From the NCBI RefSeq assembly GCF_023100845.1, contig NZ_CP095864.1:3472001-3536000 (forward strand): a stretch of DNA of 64,000 nucleotides, given 5' to 3'. The stretch's first letter is position 1; every line of letters starts with the position of its first letter. Both the position numbers and the translations under genes were made by a program. This document shows, piece by piece, positions 477 through 8,233 of the stretch. The notes under the pieces were generated by a model. The model ran no database searches. It was given only the letters and a program-made list of their open reading frames with translations, and was not told the origin of the DNA. This DNA is from Gordonia sp. PP30 (GTDB taxonomy: Bacteria; Actinomycetota; Actinomycetes; Mycobacteriales; Mycobacteriaceae).

Positions 477-2246
477 ATGCACCACGACGCAGGCAACTAC
501 GAGGCGTTCGCCCGACCGCGCAAGCCGGCCGGAGTAGACGACAAGACGGCCTGGTTCGTCGGATCCGGACTGGCGTCGCTTTCCGGCGCCGCGTTCCTGA
601 TCCGGGACGGCCAGATGTCCGGCGACAGGATCACCGTTTTCGAGGAACTCGACCTACCGGGCGGCGCCCTGGACGGTATCAAGGAGCCCGAGAAGGGCTT
701 CGTGATCCGCGGCGGCCGCGAAATGGAGAACCATTTCGAGTGTCTCTGGGACCTCTTCCGCTCCGTTCCGTCGCTGGAGATCGACGGTGCCAGCGTGCTC
801 GACGAATTCTACTGGCTCAACAAGGACGACCCGAACTTCTCTCTGTGCCGCGTGACCGAGAAGCAGGGCCAGGACGCGCACACCGACGGCAAGTTCGACA
901 TGGACGACGCCTCGCAGAAGGATCTGGTCCGCATGTTCCTCGCCACCCGCGAGGAACTGGCGAACGTGAAGATCAGCGACTTCTTCTCCAAGGAGTTCCT
1001 GGCGAGCAACTTCTGGCTGTACTGGCGCACCATGTTCGCCTTCGAGGAGTGGCATAGCGCGCTGGAGATGAAGCTGTACCTGCATCGCTTCATCCACCAC
1101 ATCAAGGGTCTGCCGGACCTGTCGTCGCTCAAGTTCACCAAGTACAACCAGTACGAGTCGCTGGTGCTGCCGCTCTACAAGTGGCTCCTGGATCAGGGGG
1201 TCGTGTTCCGCTTCTCCACGACGGTGACCGATGTCGACTTCGACGTCGACGGCACCCGCAAACAGGCCACGCGGATCCACTGGACCAGCAAGGGTGAGGA
1301 CGGTACGACCGAGCTCTCGGCGAATGATCTGCTGTTCATGACGATCGGCTCGCTCACCGAGAACTCCGACGAGGGCGATCACCGGACCCCGGCCACCCTC
1401 AACCGCGGGCCGGCGCCGGCATGGGATCTGTGGCGGCGGATCGCCGCGAAGGATCCGGCATTCGGTCGTCCGAACGTCTTCGGCGGCGACATCGACGCCA
1501 CCAAGTGGGAGTCGTGCACGGTGACCACGCTCGACACCCGGATCCCGGAGTACATCCGCAAGATCTGCAAGCGCGATCCCTTCAGCGGCAAGGTGGTGAC
1601 CGGCGGCATCGTGACCGCCAAGGACTCCAGCTGGCTGATGAGCTGGACGGTGAACCGGCAGCCGCACTTCAAGCAGCAACCGAAAGACCAGATCGTCGTC
1701 TGGGTCTACGGCCTGTTCCCCGACAAGAAGGGCGACTACGTCGACAAGACAATGGCCGAATGCACCGGCGAGGAGATCACCCGCGAATGGCTGTACCAGA
1801 TGGGTGTCCCCACCGATCAGATCGACGAGCTCGCGGCGACCGGCGCGAAGGCCGTCCCGTGCATGATGCCGTACGTCACCGCGTTCTTCATGCCGCGCCA
1901 GTCCGGTGACCGGCCCGACGTGGTGCCGGCCGGCTCGGTGAACTTCGCCTTCATCGGCCAGTTCTCCGAGAGCCCGACGCGCGACTGCATCTTCACCACC
2001 GAGTACTCGGTGCGCACGCCGATGGAAGCGGTCTACACCCTCCTCGACATCGAGCGCGCGGTCCCGGAGGTCTACGGATCGACCTACGATGTCCGCCAGC
2101 TCCTCAACGCCACCTCGCGCCTGCGCGACGGCGCCGAGGTGGAACTGCCCGGTCCGCACTTCCTGCGCGAGCGGGTGTACGCGAAGTTCCAGGACAACGA
2201 GGTCGGCAAGCTGATCACCGACTACAACCTGATCGCCGAACCGTAG
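477..2246 (+). CDS. ohyA: Oleate hydratase (MCRA family, FAD-dependent)
   Basis: This 589-residue protein has the usual length for the 67-kDa myosin-cross-reactive antigen family, which hydrates the cis-9 double bond of oleate to 10-hydroxystearate. The N-terminus carries a Rossmann FAD motif (WFVGSGLASLSGAAFL, about residues 26-41), then ELDLPGGALDG and RGGREMENHFECLWDLF, regions that bind FAD and carry the conserved acidic residue of this family. The Trp-rich middle and the CIFTTEYSVRTPMEAVY segment near residue 505 are also typical. The start at 477 follows a purine-rich ribosome site (AGAGGG). A strong hairpin terminator follows directly. Hydration of unsaturated fatty acids is often linked to detoxification; no regulator is adjacent. 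Confidence 0.95.
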   Translation: MHHDAGNYEAFARPRKPAGVDDKTAWFVGSGLASLSGAAFLIRDGQMSGDRITVFEELDLPGGALDGIKEPEKGFVIRGGREMENHFECLWDLFRSVPSLEIDGASVLDEFYWLNKDDPNFSLCRVTEKQGQDAHTDGKFDMDDASQKDLVRMFLATREELANVKISDFFSKEFLASNFWLYWRTMFAFEEWHSALEMKLYLHRFIHHIKGLPDLSSLKFTKYNQYESLVLPLYKWLLDQGVVFRFSTTVTDVDFDVDGTRKQATRIHWTSKGEDGTTELSANDLLFMTIGSLTENSDEGDHRTPATLNRGPAPAWDLWRRIAAKDPAFGRPNVFGGDIDATKWESCTVTTLDTRIPEYIRKICKRDPFSGKVVTGGIVTAKDSSWLMSWTVNRQPHFKQQPKDQIVVWVYGLFPDKKGDYVDKTMAECTGEEITREWLYQMGVPTDQIDELAATGAKAVPCMMPYVTAFFMPRQSGDRPDVVPAGSVNFAFIGQFSESPTRDCIFTTEYSVRTPMEAVYTLLDIERAVPEVYGSTYDVRQLLNATSRLRDGAEVELPGPHFLRERVYAKFQDNEVGKLITDYNLIAEP

Positions 2247-2383: not shown

Positions 2384-3172
2384 TCAGCGTCCCGGATAGG
2401 CGTACCGCATCCAGCGCGGCGGGCGGAACGGCGCGGGCGACTCGGCCGCGGGCAGCGCCAGACGATCGGCGATCGCCCACACCGTCGGCAGATTGTGCCC
2501 GAACCCGAAGTGACTGCACAGCACCTCGATGTTCTCGGCCATCGGTCCCGGGTTGTCCCGGCACGCCTGCCAGGCGACGATGCCGTCGGTCCGGCTGTAG
2601 AACGCGGTCGACGGCATCGGCAGCGGCGGCGCATCGGCCTCCAGCGGCAACTGCAGATCGGTGACGTGGAAGCGGCGCAGCAGGTTGTACAGGTGCCGGG
2701 CGTTGCTCTGGCTGTGGCGCTCCAGTTTGATCGGGCTGCCGAGGGTGATCACCTGCCGGATCATCTCCGGTGTCTCCCGGGCCAGTTGGCGGGCATAGAT
2801 GCCGCCGAGGCTCCACCCGATCACCGACACCGGGGCCTGGTGGCGCTCGTAGACCTCGGCGAGCCGGTCACGCATGCCCGCGGTGATCTTGGCGCTCGGC
2901 CCGATGTTGACGCCGAGCCTCCACCCGTAGGTCGGATAGCCGAGGCGGCGCAGGGTCTGGCGCAGCGGCACGGTGTTGACGTCGGCGGTACCCAGCCCGG
3001 GCAGCACCAGAATCGGCTGCAGGTCGTCGCTCACCGGGGCGGCCAGCATCGCCGGCCAGGTGGACAGGTAGGTCGCGAACTCCATGGTCGCGCGCGGGCC
3101 GTCGGACGCCCACATCAGGAGTCTCGGCGATTTGACGTTGCTGCCGGACAGCTTGGACACCGTCGTGGTCAT
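2384..3172 (-). CDS. Alpha/beta hydrolase, lipase-like, last gene of a PHA-type operon
   Basis: The start is placed at ATG 3172 (MTTTVSKL), preceded by AGAAAGGA; this gives 262 residues. The open frame extends upstream but runs into the preceding SDR gene. The sequence has a nucleophile elbow GWSLGG near residue 120, preceded by an ILVLPGLGT stretch that resembles the oxyanion-loop region of lipases, and a conserved SHFGFGHN segment near residue 225 that may supply the catalytic His. No signal peptide is obvious, so it is likely cytoplasmic or granule-associated. It sits 13 bp after the SDR and shares the direction of phaC and tetR upstream. A role as intracellular esterase or PHA depolymerase is inferred from context only; substrate is unknown. 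Confidence 0.75.
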   Translation of the reverse strand: MTTTVSKLSGSNVKSPRLLMWASDGPRATMEFATYLSTWPAMLAAPVSDDLQPILVLPGLGTADVNTVPLRQTLRRLGYPTYGWRLGVNIGPSAKITAGMRDRLAEVYERHQAPVSVIGWSLGGIYARQLARETPEMIRQVITLGSPIKLERHSQSNARHLYNLLRRFHVTDLQLPLEADAPPLPMPSTAFYSRTDGIVAWQACRDNPGPMAENIEVLCSHFGFGHNLPTVWAIADRLALPAAESPAPFRPPRWMRYAYPGR

Positions 3173-3185
3173 GATCGGTCCTTTC

Positions 3186-3950
3186 TCAGCTGACCAGCAT
3201 GCCGCCGTCGATCGGCAGCGTGACCCCGGTGAGGTAGCTGCTCGCATCGCTGGCCAGGAACAGCAGCGCCGGGTCGAGCTCGCCCGCACCTCCGAGGCGC
3301 CCGAACAGGGTGCGCGGCATCACGTAGCGTTCCAGCACGCCCTCGTCGAACTCCGCGGTCATCTCCGAATCGAAATAGCCGGGGGCGAGGGCGTTGACCC
3401 GGATGCCCTTGCGCGGCGTCCACTGCTGCGCCAGGTCGCGGGTCAGGCCGATCACCGCGGCCTTGCTCGCGCTGTAGGCCGCCTGCGGCATCAGGACGCT
3501 GGTGATGCCGAGGATGCTGGCGAGGTTCACGATCGACGACCCCGGCTGCATCACGCGCGCACAGGCCTGCGCCATGTAGAAGGTGCCGTTCAGGTTCACG
3601 TCGATCACCTGGCGGAACTCCGCCGGATCCTCCCGGGTGGCCGGCACCGAGCTGGCGATCCCGGCGTTGTTCACCAGGATGTCGACCTTCCCGAATTCGG
3701 CGATCGCGGCCTCGACCGCGGCCGTGCACGCGGCCGGGTCCGACACGTCGCAGCCGACCGGCAGCGCCCTGCGGCCCAGCGCCCGCACCGCGTCGGCGGT
3801 CTCGGCGAGCCGGTCGGTGCGGCGCGCGGCCAGCACCACGTCGGCGCCGGCCTCGGCGAGCGCCTTCGCGAAGCCCACGCCCAGGCCGCTGGACGCACCG
3901 GTCACCAGCGCCACCTTGCCGTCGAGCCGGAACTTGTCCAGAACTGTCAT
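3186..3950 (-). CDS. Short-chain dehydrogenase/reductase (classical SDR)
   Basis: A 254-residue classical SDR. It shows the cofactor motif TGASSGLG (residues 17-24), NNAG (94-97), and the catalytic set Ser145, Tyr159 and Lys163 (YSASK). Arg residues after the second beta strand (AARRTDR) suggest NADP(H) preference. In a PHA operon the expected partner would be a 3-ketoacyl-CoA reductase of the PhaB type that makes the (R)-3-hydroxyacyl-CoA substrate for PhaC, but SDR sequences alone do not show substrate, and the protein could act on another alcohol or ketone. It lies between the GNAT gene (21 bp) and the alpha/beta hydrolase (13 bp), so the genes are very likely co-transcribed. Confidence 0.9.
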   Translation of the reverse strand: MTVLDKFRLDGKVALVTGASSGLGVGFAKALAEAGADVVLAARRTDRLAETADAVRALGRRALPVGCDVSDPAACTAAVEAAIAEFGKVDILVNNAGIASSVPATREDPAEFRQVIDVNLNGTFYMAQACARVMQPGSSIVNLASILGITSVLMPQAAYSASKAAVIGLTRDLAQQWTPRKGIRVNALAPGYFDSEMTAEFDEGVLERYVMPRTLFGRLGGAGELDPALLFLASDASSYLTGVTLPIDGGMLVS

Positions 3951-3971
3951 GCTTCTTCCTCGTTTCGTCGC

Positions 3972-4496
3972 TCAGACCAGTTCATCGGCGATGCCGGTGT
4001 AGGCCATGGTGTTCATGCCGTCTTCGACGTGATGCGCCAGCACCAGCAGGTCGTGGGTGTCGCCGTCGCGCGTCTTCAGGTGATCGCGCAGCAGTGCCTC
4101 GCCGGTGAAGCCGAGCCGGCTGAACAGCGCCACCGCCCCCTCGGCGTCGGTCGGCAGTTCGATGACGATCTTGGTCACGCCGTCGCTGAACGCCGAGCGC
4201 ATCGCCTCCTTGGCCAGTTCGGCGCCGTACCCGCGGCCGCGCGCGTCGGCGGAGACGACGAGGCGGAGCTCACCGACGTGGTTCGACCAGCCGGGCAACC
4301 GGTGCACGGTCGCGTAGCCGAGCAGCCGGCCGTCGTCCTCGCAGGCCCACCGGTAGTCCGAGCCGGCCAGCAACTGATCGAAGAGGCCCGGATCGGTCAG
4401 GTCTTCGCGGATCAGGGTGCGGTCGCGTTCGGACAGGCTCCCCCACAGCGTCCGCAGTGCCTCGCCGTCGGTGTCGGTCAACTTCCGGATGGTCAT
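3972..4496 (-). CDS. GNAT family N-acetyltransferase
   Basis: The start is taken at ATG 4496 because it overlaps the phaC stop as ATGA, a sign of translational coupling; this gives 174 residues. The acetyl-CoA pyrophosphate loop is visible as ARGRGYG (about residues 85-91), following the beta-4 strand ELRLVVSADA, and the C-terminal beta strands follow (LFSRLGFTGEALL). The substrate is unknown. It may acetylate a protein or small molecule; its position inside a phaC operon suggests a regulatory or metabolic link, which is inference. Confidence 0.85.
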   Translation of the reverse strand: MTIRKLTDTDGEALRTLWGSLSERDRTLIREDLTDPGLFDQLLAGSDYRWACEDDGRLLGYATVHRLPGWSNHVGELRLVVSADARGRGYGAELAKEAMRSAFSDGVTKIVIELPTDAEGAVALFSRLGFTGEALLRDHLKTRDGDTHDLLVLAHHVEDGMNTMAYTGIADELV

Positions 4497-5575
4497 ACCA
4501 GCGCCTCGCTCTGCTTCTTCAGGAACTCGATGATCGTGGGGATGGTCGTCTTGGCGGCGGTCCGGCCGACGACCAGCCCGATGTGCCCACCGCGCAGGCA
4601 CAGCTCGGTCTTCTGCTCGGAACCGATCAGGTCGAGCACCGGCCGCGCCGCGTCCAGCGGCACGATGTGGTCCTTCTCGCCGAGCACCGCCAGGAAGGGG
4701 ACGGTGACGTCCTTCAGGTCGATCCGGTCGCCGCCGAGCACCACGTTCCCGCGCATCAGCGCGTTGTCGCCCATCAGGCCCAGCAACTGCCGCGCGGTGG
4801 CGCCCGCGAGGGGCACGTGATCGGTCGCCCAGCCGTTCATCGCCTGGTACGCGGCGACGTAGTCGTCACTCCACAGCTTCTCCAGCAGGTCGACGTAGCC
4901 GGTCACCTCGGCCACGGGTTTGAGACTCCGGAAGGCGCTGAAGACGACGTTCGCCGGGATGTTGCCGTCGTCGCCGAGCATCTCGTCCACGTCGGCGGCG
5001 GTGCCGCCGCCGAACGCGTCGCGCAGCGGCATCCGGTCGAAGTCGACGGGACAGGCGACCACGGTGTGGCTGCGGATCGGTGCGTCGGGATGGTGCGCGC
5101 CGTGCATCAGGGTCAGATCCCCGCCGAAGCAGTAGCCGAGGATATTGACCTCACCGGAGTGCGAGCGGCGGCACACCTCACGGATCGCGGCCGGGATGAC
5201 GCCGTCGACGTAGTACTCGAGGCCGTTGCGGGCGTCGCGCTCGTCGGCCTCGCCCCAGTCGATCAGGTAGATGTCGAATCCCGCCTTGAGGAGATGTTCG
5301 ATGAAGCTGTTGCCGGGCGTCAGGTCCAGGATGTACGCGCGGCTGAACAGCGAGAACACGATGAGCAACGGCGGGCCGTGGGTCACGTCGTCGTTCCGGT
5401 AGCGGTACAGCGTGGCCCGCCCGTTGCGCCAGACCGGGTCGCGCGGCGTCACCCCGGTCGGCGGCTCGGATGCGCCGACGGCCATCTTGATCCCGTTGCG
5501 GGCCCGCAGGGCGTTGCGCTCCACCTCCTGCCGAACCCGGTCGACGATGCCGCGCGGGTCAGGAATCAGTGCCAT
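4493..5575 (-). CDS. phaC: Class III-type polyhydroxyalkanoate synthase subunit PhaC
   Basis: The 360-residue protein has the length of class III PhaC subunits. The lipase-like box is GYCFGG with Cys149 as nucleophile; Asp302 (EKDHIVP) and His331 (RGGHIGL) complete the triad. These are the same residue numbers as in the class III enzyme of Allochromatium vinosum, which supports both the class and the chosen start at ATG 5575. PhaC polymerises (R)-3-hydroxyacyl-CoA into PHA with release of CoA, and class III enzymes need a PhaE partner. The gene starts 17 bp inside the end of a small coiled-coil gene that may fill this role, and overlaps the GNAT gene downstream by 4 bp. Confidence 0.9.
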   Translation of the reverse strand: MALIPDPRGIVDRVRQEVERNALRARNGIKMAVGASEPPTGVTPRDPVWRNGRATLYRYRNDDVTHGPPLLIVFSLFSRAYILDLTPGNSFIEHLLKAGFDIYLIDWGEADERDARNGLEYYVDGVIPAAIREVCRRSHSGEVNILGYCFGGDLTLMHGAHHPDAPIRSHTVVACPVDFDRMPLRDAFGGGTAADVDEMLGDDGNIPANVVFSAFRSLKPVAEVTGYVDLLEKLWSDDYVAAYQAMNGWATDHVPLAGATARQLLGLMGDNALMRGNVVLGGDRIDLKDVTVPFLAVLGEKDHIVPLDAARPVLDLIGSEQKTELCLRGGHIGLVVGRTAAKTTIPTIIEFLKKQSEALV

Positions 5576-5864
5576 CGCCGGCGTCCTTCTCGGTGGCGCG
5601 CTCCGCCAGTTCCAGACGCAGGCGACGAATCTCGTAGTCCAGTTCACCGATCTGGCGCCGCAACCGGCGCACATCGCTGCCCGCGGGCAGATTCACCGTG
5701 TGCAGCACGTCGGCGGCGACGTGCTCGAAGGCTCGGCCCGCCCGATTGCGCAGCTTCATCGCCGTGGTGGCGACGTCGCTGAACCTGTCCGAGTGGACCA
5801 CGTCCTCGATCACCGGGGTGGCCCGTTTCTCGATCGTGTCGTACAGCCCGCACAGCGAGACCAT
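5559..5864 (-). CDS. Small coiled-coil protein, PhaE/phasin-like
   Basis: The 101-residue protein starts at ATG 5864, which overlaps the TetR stop (TGATG), behind a strong GAGGAG site. An N-terminal helix-rich part is followed by a heptad-like charged segment at about residues 68-88 (RRQIGELDYEIRRLRLELA) predicted to form a coiled coil. Such C-terminal coiled coils occur in phasins and in PhaE, the partner of class III PhaC. The phaC gene begins within its last codons. It is much shorter than typical PhaE (about 300-350 residues), so it is either a reduced partner subunit, a granule-bound phasin, or an unrelated helper. Function is inferred from shape and position. Confidence 0.65.
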   Translation of the reverse strand: MVSLCGLYDTIEKRATPVIEDVVHSDRFSDVATTAMKLRNRAGRAFEHVAADVLHTVNLPAGSDVRRLRRQIGELDYEIRRLRLELAERATEKDAGDGTDS

Positions 5865-6436
5865 CAGCTCCTCCTCAGACCTTCGTGAACACCCAGCAGG
5901 GCGGCGCACGCCTGCCGGACCTCGGCGGGATCGGGACTCTCCCCGGCGAGCGCGTCGGCGTACACGAACGACTCGGTGATGCGCAGCAGCACGTACGCGG
6001 TGTCGTGCGGCGGCAGCACGACGGCCAGCCGCCCGGCCTCCACCTCGGCCGTCACCTCGCCTTCGATGCGGTCGACGATCCGGCCCGCGACGCCGCCGGC
6101 ACGCCTGGTGACCACGCGGAGCGCCCGGTCCGGCTCGCGGCACAGGAAGTCCATGAACGGCGCCGAACGCACCGAACTCGTCGCGAACCGCCCCATCGCG
6201 TCGGCGATGCGCGCACCGCCGGGACCGGTGGCGCGCGCGAACGCGTCGTCCAGCGCGGCGGCGGCCATCGTCCAGATCACCTCGCCGAGCAGCCGGTCGC
6301 GATCCTTGTAGCGACGGTACAAGGTGCTGCGGTTGATGCCGGCCGCCGTCGCGAGAGCACTCATGTCGATCCGGCCCGACTCGAGAAAGGCGCGGCGCGC
6401 CAGGACCACCACATCGGGAGACTGCACTTTGGTCAC
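5864..6436 (-). CDS. TetR family regulator, first gene of the PHA-type operon
   Basis: A 190-residue protein with a GTG start at 6436. The N-terminal helix-turn-helix is clear (MSALATAAGINRSTLYRRYKDR, about residues 24-45), followed by a variable all-helical ligand domain. It is the leading gene of a run of six overlapping or tightly spaced genes and faces a fatty acyl-CoA ligase across 150 bp containing a perfect palindrome. The simplest reading is an autoregulated repressor of both directions that senses an acyl-CoA or fatty acid; the ligand is not visible from sequence. Confidence 0.9.
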   Translation of the reverse strand: MTKVQSPDVVVLARRAFLESGRIDMSALATAAGINRSTLYRRYKDRDRLLGEVIWTMAAAALDDAFARATGPGGARIADAMGRFATSSVRSAPFMDFLCREPDRALRVVTRRAGGVAGRIVDRIEGEVTAEVEAGRLAVVLPPHDTAYVLLRITESFVYADALAGESPDPAEVRQACAALLGVHEGLRRS

Positions 6437-6506
6437 GCGCCCCTCGTCTCACCGTCCCGGCGTCTGCGACATTCGGCGATTTTGTTGCAGTCCGCTCCGC
6501 CCTCAC

Positions 6507-6525
6507 CACGGTAACGGATACCGTG
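6507..6525. promoter_or_regulatory. Palindromic operator between tetR and fadD
   Basis: CACGGTAACGGATACCGTG has perfect 7-bp arms with a 5-bp centre. A second, shorter inverted repeat (GTGAG-TTAG-CTCAC, 6523-6536) overlaps its end. The site lies 71 bp upstream of tetR and 62 bp upstream of fadD, where a repressor could control both. Assignment to the adjacent TetR is inference. Confidence 0.65.
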
Positions 6526-6586
6526 AGTTAGCTCACTGAGATGGCCCGATTGCCGAGGGCCTCACCCAACGAAGGAGTCCGCACAC

Positions 6587-8233
6587 ATGATCCAGTCGAC
6601 GATGCAGGAAGGCGCGCTGACGATCTCCAGCCTGCTGGAGCACAGCCGCAAGTTCTTCCCGGAGGCCACCGTCAGCACGTGGACCGGATCGGGACTGCGC
6701 ACCGAGTCGTTCAGCGAGATCGGCGACAACGCCGCGCAGGTGGCGAACGCACTGGCGAAACTCGGCATCGGTATCGGCGACCGGGTCGCCACGTTCATGT
6801 GGAACAACAACGAGCACCAGGCCCTCTACGCCGCCATCCCCTCGATGGGCGCCGTCCTGCACACGCTCAACCTGCGGCTCTCACCCGAGCAGGCGGTGTT
6901 CATCATGAACCACGCCGAGGACAAGGTGGTCTTCGTCGATGCCAGCGTGGCCCCGCTCCTGCAGAACTATGTTCCGCAGGTGCCGTCGGTGACCGACGTC
7001 GTCGTCGTGAACGGCCCCGCCGACGCGTTCAGCGCGCCCGAGGGCGTCACCGTGCGCGCCTGGGACGACCTGCTCGAGGGCGAATCGACCGAGTACGACT
7101 GGCCCGAGCTGGACGAGCACGCCGCTGCGGCCATGTGCTACACCTCCGGCACCACCGGCGACCCCAAGGGCGTCGTCTACTCGCACCGCTCGATCTATCT
7201 GCATTCGTTCCAGGTGATCTCCACCGCAGGCATGGCACTGGCGAACTCCGACCTCGCGCTGGTGATCGTGCCGATGTTCCACGCGATGAGCTGGGGCATG
7301 CCGTACGCGGCGATGATGGCCGGCGCCAGCCTGCTCCATCCGGACCGCTTCCTGCAGCCCGAGCCGCTGCTGGCGATGATGAAGGAGGCCCGGCCGACGA
7401 TGGCCGCGGCCGTGCCCACGATCTGGTCCGGCGTCGCCGCGCTGCTCGAATCCCATCCGCAGGACATCTCGCACCTGCGCAGCGTCACCGTCGGCGGCTC
7501 GGCCGTCCCCCCGTCGATGGTGCGCAAGTTCGACGAGTTCAACGCCCCGATCGTCCATGCGTGGGGCATGACCGAGACCTCCCCGCTGGGCTCGGTCGCC
7601 CATCCGCCGGCCGACGTCACCGACCCGGAAGAGGCCTTCCCGTTCCGGATCACCCAGGGCCGCTTCCCGGCCGCGGTGGCCGCCCGCATCGTCGACTCGG
7701 ACGGCAATGTGCTGCCGAACGACGGGGTGACCAGCGGCGAGCTGGAGGTGTCCGGCCCGTGGATCACCGGCTCGTACTATTCGCCCGAGGGGAACGTGTC
7801 CGATCCGTCGAAGTTCCACGACGGCTGGCTGCGCACCGGTGACGTGTCCACCATCAGCCCGCAGGGGTACATGACGATCGTCGACCGCACCAAGGACATC
7901 ATCAAGACCGGCGGCGAGTGGATCTCCTCGGTCGACCTGGAGAACGTGATCGCCGGCCACCCGGAGATCCTCGAGTGCACCGTGATCGGCGTGCCCGACC
8001 CGAAGTGGGATGAGCGGCCGTTCGTGCTGGCCGTCACCACCGAGGGCTCGACGCTCGACGTGCCCACGATGCGCGCATGGCTCGAGGAGCGGGTGCCGCG
8101 CTGGCAGGTGCCCGAGCGGTGGTCGTTCGGCGAGGAGGTCCCGAAGACGTCGGTCGGCAAGTTCGACAAGAAGAAGGTCCGCCAGGCGTACGCCGACGGA
8201 CTGTACGAGGTGATCAACGGTCTCGAACTCTGA
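6587..8233 (+). CDS. Fatty acyl-CoA ligase (FadD type, AMP-binding)
   Basis: A 548-residue member of the ANL superfamily. The P-loop reads [11 protein letters not shown] (185-195), the aromatic/Glu motif reads [10 protein letters not shown], and the hinge and C-terminal motifs are GWLRTGDV and [15 protein letters not shown]; the catalytic Lys lies in the C-terminal [10 protein letters not shown] segment. It activates a carboxylic acid, probably medium- or long-chain fatty acid, through an acyl-adenylate to the CoA thioester. An AAGGAG site precedes ATG 6587. It is divergent from the PHA-type operon and could feed acyl-CoA to it through beta-oxidation. A factor-independent terminator follows. 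Confidence 0.92.

Follow-up and report, generated by a model that had tools for sequence, protein, structure and literature searches.

The described systems closest to the locus analysed here are two-subunit PHA synthases, in which PhaC is paired with PhaE (class III) or with PhaR (class IV, Bacillus/Priestia). Passages of PMC3191746 give PhaR as ∼20 kDa and haloarchaeal PhaE as ∼550 bp. A related cluster lies on plasmid pNL2 of Novosphingobium aromaticivorans (SARO_RS18625-18640), where a 121-aa protein already carries a PhaE annotation. To our knowledge it is not settled by what mechanism the class III/IV partners switch PhaC on, nor what governs the beginning and end of PHA chains.

In the window, a 64,000-nucleotide stretch of Gordonia sp. 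PP30 DNA, inspection confirmed the compact six-gene operon of the original prediction. The six genes all lie on the - strand, close together or overlapping (junctions of -1, -17, -4, +21 and +13 bp from the TetR gene to the hydrolase gene), and Pfam and NCBIfam matches back each gene call. Comparison with the operons of relatives showed the content and order of the genes to recur there, which argues for more than a chance association. The set probably serves the synthesis and recycling of a storage polyester. Sections of three papers on PHA in Gordonia and Tsukamurella (PMC9003127, PMC9878459 and PMC2667194) contain no description of this operon.

The gene at positions 4493–5575 (- strand) codes for PhaC (360 aa). 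Its GYCFGG box fits the G-x-C-x-G-G pattern which, with a Cys-Asp-His triad, marks PHA synthases of any class, and the triad C149, D302 and H331, as predicted, is invariant in all 17 aligned PhaCs. The assignment to class III stood in part only: the match to TIGR01836 (E 8e-80) is class III/IV-like, but its score of 268.4 bits lies under the subfamily cut-off of 365.3. With the same model, Sinorhizobium (380.5) and Priestia (534.2) scored above the cut-off and Novosphingobium (293.5) below it. Judged by homology and the kept triad, the protein is a class III/IV-like PHA synthase. A second synthase, class I/II-like, is encoded elsewhere in the genome (475.7 and 575.1 bits, below the cut-offs of those classes).

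The 101-aa protein encoded at 5559–5864 (- strand), whose gene overlaps phaC by 17 bp, matched TIGR01834 (PhaE), TIGR01837 and TIGR02132, each below its curated cut-off (24.5 against 154.95 bits for TIGR01834, and 18.6 against 148.4 for TIGR02132). Annotated PhaE proteins also fall under the TIGR01834 cut-off (S. meliloti, 43.1; Novosphingobium, 23.8). The match covers profile positions 236–322, i.e. the PhaE C-terminus (E 1.7e-5). When the profile of the 101-aa protein was compared with single sequences (hhalign), it aligned without gaps to residues 11–104 of the 199 of PhaR (E 2.1e-7), and similarly modest values were obtained for the PhaE proteins of S. meliloti (6.8e-6) and Novosphingobium (3.6e-9). 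Three helices are predicted (structure model pLDDT 75.6). A coincidental likeness among coiled coils was considered and rejected, the PhaR alignment extending over 94 columns that include an LHxVNxPxxxDV stretch; the PDB matches of the profile, several of them plain coiled coils, all had E values of 0.046 or worse. This homology bears out the reduced PhaE-type partner of the original prediction and identifies the protein as a PhaE/PhaR-type subunit cut down to the domain common to both. The accompanying statement that a class III PhaC ordinarily depends on a PhaE of ∼350 residues was too strong, since PhaR, haloarchaeal PhaE and the 121-aa Novosphingobium PhaE are all smaller. The adjacency to phaC recurs in relatives, where the small partner adjoins class III/IV-like PhaCs; none was found next to the weaker PhaC-like proteins (L009–L033).

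Downstream of phaC lies the gene for a GNAT acyltransferase (174 aa; 3972–4496, - strand), assigned from its match to Acetyltransf_1 (1.2e-16) and its recurrent linkage to PhaC. The residues R86, G89 and G91 of the CoA-binding loop are invariant in 26 of 26 sequences, as are W70, H73, F125 and E133, and a structure model (pLDDT 85.5) aligned with 2ge3 over 154 residues (Z 21.4, rmsd 1.9). We take F125 and E113, matched by eye, to correspond to the tyrosine and glutamate of RimI. At the position where GNATs usually have a general-acid tyrosine, again matched by eye, all 26 sequences have phenylalanine, and the chemistry of the enzyme is therefore uncertain. A review (PMC4964394) gives a general-acid Tyr for 62% of characterised GNATs and a Glu base for 36%. 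The best NCBIfam match, RimI (TIGR01575), reached 36 bits against a cut-off of 86.4. Foldseek and VIA-align returned hundreds of GNATs with near-tied scores, and the nearest structures were widely mixed, with acetyltransferases of the RimI, phosphinothricin and spermidine types among them; structure thus does not name the substrate.

The original prediction had called a GNAT in such an operon unusual. This holds for the clusters viewed in Priestia, Haloferax and Sinorhizobium, where none was found, but the gene recurs beside this branch of PhaC. All 21 GNAT matches in the family, drawn from 401 genomes, adjoin a PhaC with a small partner, 20 of them directly downstream, with a 4-base overlap between the two genes at 13 of the 18 loci measured. 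A GNAT lay beside PhaC in four of the five genomes of a class search (own genome counted). In a phylum draw the GNAT was found in 1 of 217 genomes, namely the own genome, which makes it rare. Every genome search scored no more than a few first-look candidates in each genome, and matches may have been missed. In a 46-row PhaC tree (built without L129, duplicate loci and 21 of the 25 weakly PhaC-like loci L009–L033), one 20-row clade is GNAT-positive in every row. Locus L089 was scored as GNAT-negative in this tree, although its contig stops ∼300 bp past PhaC, and was dropped only in the final change count. The distances between PhaCs and between GNATs are correlated (rho 0.82, n = 23; 0 of 2000 permutations as high), a correlation that shared descent alone could explain. 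Locus L129 has PhaE, PhaC and hydrolase with no GNAT beside PhaC, showing that the link is not obligatory, and several further PhaCs with a small partner have no adjoining GNAT. Literature searches found no description of a GNAT next to such a PhaC.

The operon continues with a FabG-like SDR oxidoreductase (254 aa; 3186–3950, - strand; adh_short_C2, 4e-62). It matched 241 models, with NF005559 (glucose 1-dehydrogenase) above its cut-off (218.6 versus 215) and no PhaB model among the 25 matches listed; related loci carry SDRs 57–81% identical to it. The last gene encodes an alpha/beta hydrolase with a GWSLGG box (262 aa; 2384–3172, - strand; PGAP1, 1.2e-5, and weak Abhydrolase matches), in which S121, D196 and H221 are invariant in 12 of 12 aligned sequences. 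Its scores for PHA depolymerase families were far under their cut-offs (NF050089, 16 of 300 bits; TIGR02240, 12.1 of 250.6), and its family also occurs without PhaC, including next to acyl-CoA ligases. On the + strand, divergent from the operon, lies a long-chain acyl-CoA ligase (548 aa; 6587–8233; NF004837, 8e-184, above cut-off), with homologues 69–70% identical, also divergent from the operon, in loci L050, L051 and L053. A neighbouring oleate hydratase gene (477–2246) was set aside as a part of the module, since a scan of 25 loci (8–19 kb around PhaC-like genes) did not find it in any of them.

The first operon gene codes for a TetR-type regulator (190 aa; 5864–6436, - strand), matched by TetR_C_36 (2e-32, above cut-off) and by TetR_N just below cut-off (7e-5). 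The original prediction proposed an operator, shared with the ligase gene, at the perfect palindrome CACGGTAACGGATACCGTG (6507–6525). Its 17-base core, allowing one mismatch at most, occurs once in the 64 kb (0.03 expected from shuffles), and a scan of 15 other upstream stretches, from relatives, did not find the palindrome. The relatives thus lend this site no support, which leaves it doubtful; a sequence scan pointed to another candidate TetR operator at 6463–6491, resembling an element common to four relatives. This match ranked third in the 64 kb and best in the intergenic stretch, with 5 of 2000 shuffles as good.

We consider it reasonably probable that these genes amount to a PHA synthase module of the minimal, two-subunit kind, accompanied by a GNAT that recurs as an accessory enzyme. 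The ligase would feed fatty acids into beta-oxidation and the SDR would convert 3-ketoacyl-CoA to (R)-3-hydroxyacyl-CoA, to be polymerised on Cys149 of PhaC with the 101-aa PhaE/PhaR-core protein as activator. The hydrolase may free hydroxy acids for recycling, which the ligase would reactivate, and TetR would repress the operon and perhaps the ligase gene. For the GNAT, the likeliest role would be the modification, with acetyl- or acyl-CoA, of an amine that is part of the synthase complex or serves it, which would couple polymer formation to the pool of CoA esters. Such a module is favoured by the PhaC homology and triad, the PhaE/PhaR-like partner and the GNAT–PhaC linkage. The sub-cut-off PhaC score, the PhaC loci lacking a GNAT, the lack of an invariant lysine in PhaC or the small protein, the GNAT phenylalanine, the occurrence of the hydrolase family without PhaC and the second synthase in the genome count against it.

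The role of the GNAT allows several readings. It might be a metabolic passenger, with a small amine or amino compound as the substrate that it acetylates, co-regulated with lipid storage but making no contact with the synthase; the mixed nearest structures, the absence of a fixed lysine in PhaC and the L129 locus are consistent with this, but the adjacency to PhaC in every family match, the gene order recurring in another phylum (Novosphingobium) and the frequent 4-base overlap speak against it, and we regard it as possible though clearly less probable than the module as a whole. A simple form of the acetylation control raised in the original prediction, in which the GNAT acetylates a lysine of PhaC or PhaE as an off-switch, would suit its position beside PhaC and a best match, albeit below cut-off, to the protein acetyltransferase RimI. 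However, no lysine is invariant among 25 GNAT-linked PhaCs (best position 17/25, counting only positions existing in the PhaC of the window, with rows L054 and L118 partial) or in the alignment of the small partner proteins. The counts thus lend no support to a fixed lysine of PhaC as the acetylated site, and the switch appears improbable. To the same low degree we credit a GNAT that is a dedicated part of the minimal synthase, making an N-acylated primer or cap from acetyl- or 3-hydroxyacyl-CoA, with an amine at which a chain would begin or end, or gating the synthase by the acetyl-CoA pool; if true, this would be a novel way in which PHA chains are initiated, terminated or controlled.

It is also conceivable, though rather unlikely, that no storage polymer is made, PhaC acting as a hydroxyacyl transferase for short oligomers or a lipid conjugate that the hydrolase and GNAT edit and cap. 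A PhaC scoring under the class III cut-off, a class I/II-like PhaC already in the genome and a hydrolase family that also adjoins acyl-CoA ligases where PhaC is missing would agree with this; the branch as a whole, in contrast, retains both the complete PhaC triad and a partner of the PhaE/PhaR type, which speaks against it.

With only the domain common to PhaE and PhaR, the ∼100-residue partner would serve as a very compact natural model for studying PhaC activation. The GNAT, recurring beside this PhaC in two phyla, offers a concrete gene for the question of how PHA chains start and stop, and its adjoining the synthase in distant relatives hints at a step of control or capping not studied so far. 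A handful of purified proteins would suffice to address both questions.

Compared with known systems, the locus resembles class III PHA synthases in PhaC length, triad and the adjoining PhaE-type gene, but its PhaC scores under the subfamily cut-off, its PhaE is the C-terminal domain only, and a GNAT, a hydrolase and an SDR are attached. With class IV it shares a small partner that aligns to PhaR, and the Priestia cluster has a reductase gene; PhaR, however, is twice as long, the PhaCs are 33.3% identical, and no GNAT is annotated in the Priestia stretch viewed. The Novosphingobium pNL2 cluster shares the gene order PhaE, PhaC, GNAT and has a hydrolase homologous to the one here (PhaC 35.5% and GNAT 29.9% identical), but with a LuxR-type regulator and the hydrolase on the opposite strand. 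The GNAT itself has the fold and CoA-binding loop of RimI-like and general GNATs, and differs from them in its four invariant residues and in the phenylalanine in place of the general-acid tyrosine. From these comparisons, the locus appears to be a variant of known PHA synthase systems with an unusually small partner and a recurrent GNAT.

Six tightly packed genes on the minus strand of the window (2384-6436), which lies in a 4.48 Mb, single-contig genome, encode a TetR regulator, a 101-aa protein, PhaC, a GNAT, an SDR and an alpha/beta hydrolase, with successive junctions of -1, -17, -4, +21 and +13 bp. These gene calls and junctions confirm the six-gene operon of the original prediction, and its reading as a PHA-type operon, judged from sequence, appears to be the best one available. 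A long-chain acyl-CoA ligase gene (6587-8233) is divergent from the operon. Convergent with the operon end lies an oleate hydratase gene (477-2246, plus strand; MCRA, above the NF010584 cut-off), which was not seen in any of the 25 other loci scanned around PhaC-like genes.

PhaC (4493-5575; 360 aa) scored 268.4 bits (E 8e-80) against TIGR01836, the class III model, which is below that model's cut-off of 365.3. All five of its solved-structure relatives were PHA synthases, and C149, D302 and H331 were invariant in 17 of 17 relatives. The seven named loci whose PhaCs came closest belong to Gordonia hydrophobica, G. amarae, a Gordonia MAG and four Tsukamurella. At a threshold of E 1e-45, close PhaCs turned up in 9 of 59 genus genomes. 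When plasmid records were searched, the best rows were Novosphingobium, Priestia and haloarchaeal class III/IV synthases (30-36% identity). The host genome has three further PhaC-like places: a class I/II-like synthase below both class cut-offs, a 384-aa frame and a protein that exceeds the PRK07868 cut-off. No small partner was found at any of them within the distance searched.

The GNAT gene (3972-4496; 174 aa) recurs beside PhaC. Across 401 family genomes, 19 contained a total of 21 GNAT matches (E 1e-25 or better), all adjoining a PhaC of the group with small partners. In 20 of these the GNAT was on the same strand and directly downstream of PhaC; in the exception (L120) it lay upstream of both the small gene and PhaC, by about 1 kb. 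Among the 20, PhaC was split at one locus (L054) and the GNAT was split between frames at another (L119); a 4-bp PhaC/GNAT overlap was seen in 13 of 18 loci measured. At L054 (9384-10456, genome G151) PhaC lies in two frames while the GNAT and hydrolase read through, reflecting either a sequencing error or a broken gene. In Tsukamurella sp. PLM1 (L037/L119) neither the GNAT nor the hydrolase gene reads through in a single frame, perhaps owing to sequence errors. In genome G127 the cluster is rearranged (L058, 5267-10071), PhaC-GNAT-hydrolase being followed by an MFS transporter gene and then by the small protein and SDR genes.

At class level the GNAT was found in 5 of 394 genomes, the host included; four adjoin PhaC, and no PhaC was seen on the 3.3 kb GNAT contig of the fifth (G273). 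The phylum search returned the host genome only (1/217). Plasmid pNL2 of Novosphingobium aromaticivorans carries PhaE (121 aa), PhaC and GNAT genes plus a convergent homologous hydrolase gene (253 bits against the hydrolase profile). The GNAT is missing beside the PhaCs of L059, L060, L061, L066 and L090-L093, all with a small partner, and L129 (genome G595), which encodes the small protein, a PhaC (570 bits) and the hydrolase, leaves no space for one. On the PhaC tree, one starred 20-row clade was wholly GNAT-positive, and the GNAT label required five changes (four without the truncated L089), three of them forced by starred branches. The pairing has therefore undergone several gains or losses, or else has passed from one genome to another. 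PhaC and GNAT distance matrices were correlated (rho 0.82, n=23), which shared inheritance can explain.

The alignment of 26 GNATs, which includes the unlinked G273 protein, showed R86, G89, G91, W70, H73, V74, F125 and E133 to be invariant, position 76 to be acidic throughout and position 113 to be Glu in 23. By eye, F125 occupies what we take to be the place of the general-acid tyrosine of many GNATs. This tyrosine is present in 62% of characterised GNATs (PMC4964394). Many acetyltransferases were equally alike to the predicted model (pLDDT 85.5). The original prediction had raised acetylation control; however, no lysine was invariant in the 25 GNAT-linked PhaCs (best K30, 17/25; K342, 16/25; K322, 15/25) or among the small proteins aligned, making lysine acetylation of the synthase less likely. 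The target might be an N-terminus, a lysine at a variable position or some small amine.

SDRs 57-81% identical to that of the operon (3186-3950) occur in many related loci, where other SDRs reach about 41%. The hydrolase (2384-3172), whose Ser121, Asp196 and His221 were kept in 12 of 12, belongs to a family present in 40 of 401 family genomes. In five of the ten stretches fetched for this hydrolase family (L127, L128, L130, L132 and L135, from other family genomes), a member adjoins an acyl-CoA ligase without PhaC, a pairing that would fit hydroxy- or fatty-acid release followed by reactivation. L127 has an additional alpha/beta hydrolase upstream.

The proposed TetR site at 6507-6525, an exact palindrome occurring once in the window, had no counterpart in the 15 further upstream stretches that were scanned. 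Four relatives with a TetR gene (L050, L051, L038 and L039) share a different element, of approximate sequence TGCAYCATTT-N5-AAATGRTGCA, present in full or as one half. By a matrix built from these four only, 6463-6491 scored best within the intergenic stretch (6437-6586) and ranked third across the 64 kb; 5 of 2000 shuffles scored as well. These results make 6463-6491 the better TetR candidate, albeit from a tiny training set and a choice made with the data already in view.

The 101-aa protein (5559-5864) matched models for PhaE, phasin-type proteins and PhaR with E values of 1e-3 to 2e-5, the aligned part of PhaE model TIGR01834 being positions 236-322 of 324; 11 of the 17 members of its alignment matched PhaE at E 0.01 or better. 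Its profile aligned without gaps to residues 11-104 of the 199 of Priestia PhaR (E 2.1e-7), 81-163 of the 183 of Sinorhizobium PhaE (E 6.8e-6) and the Novosphingobium 121-aa PhaE (E 3.6e-9). By these alignments its counterpart in PhaE is the C-terminal part, and in PhaR the N-terminal half. Complete frames in relatives encode 90-112 aa. Published sizes are about 40 kDa for PhaE and about 20 kDa for PhaR, with a much smaller haloarchaeal PhaE (∼550 bp) (PMC3191746), and by these sizes small PhaC partners are already known. The 101-aa protein is at the small end of the known range. The short PhaE-like protein is of a known type, and it is the recurrent GNAT that sets this operon apart as a variant.
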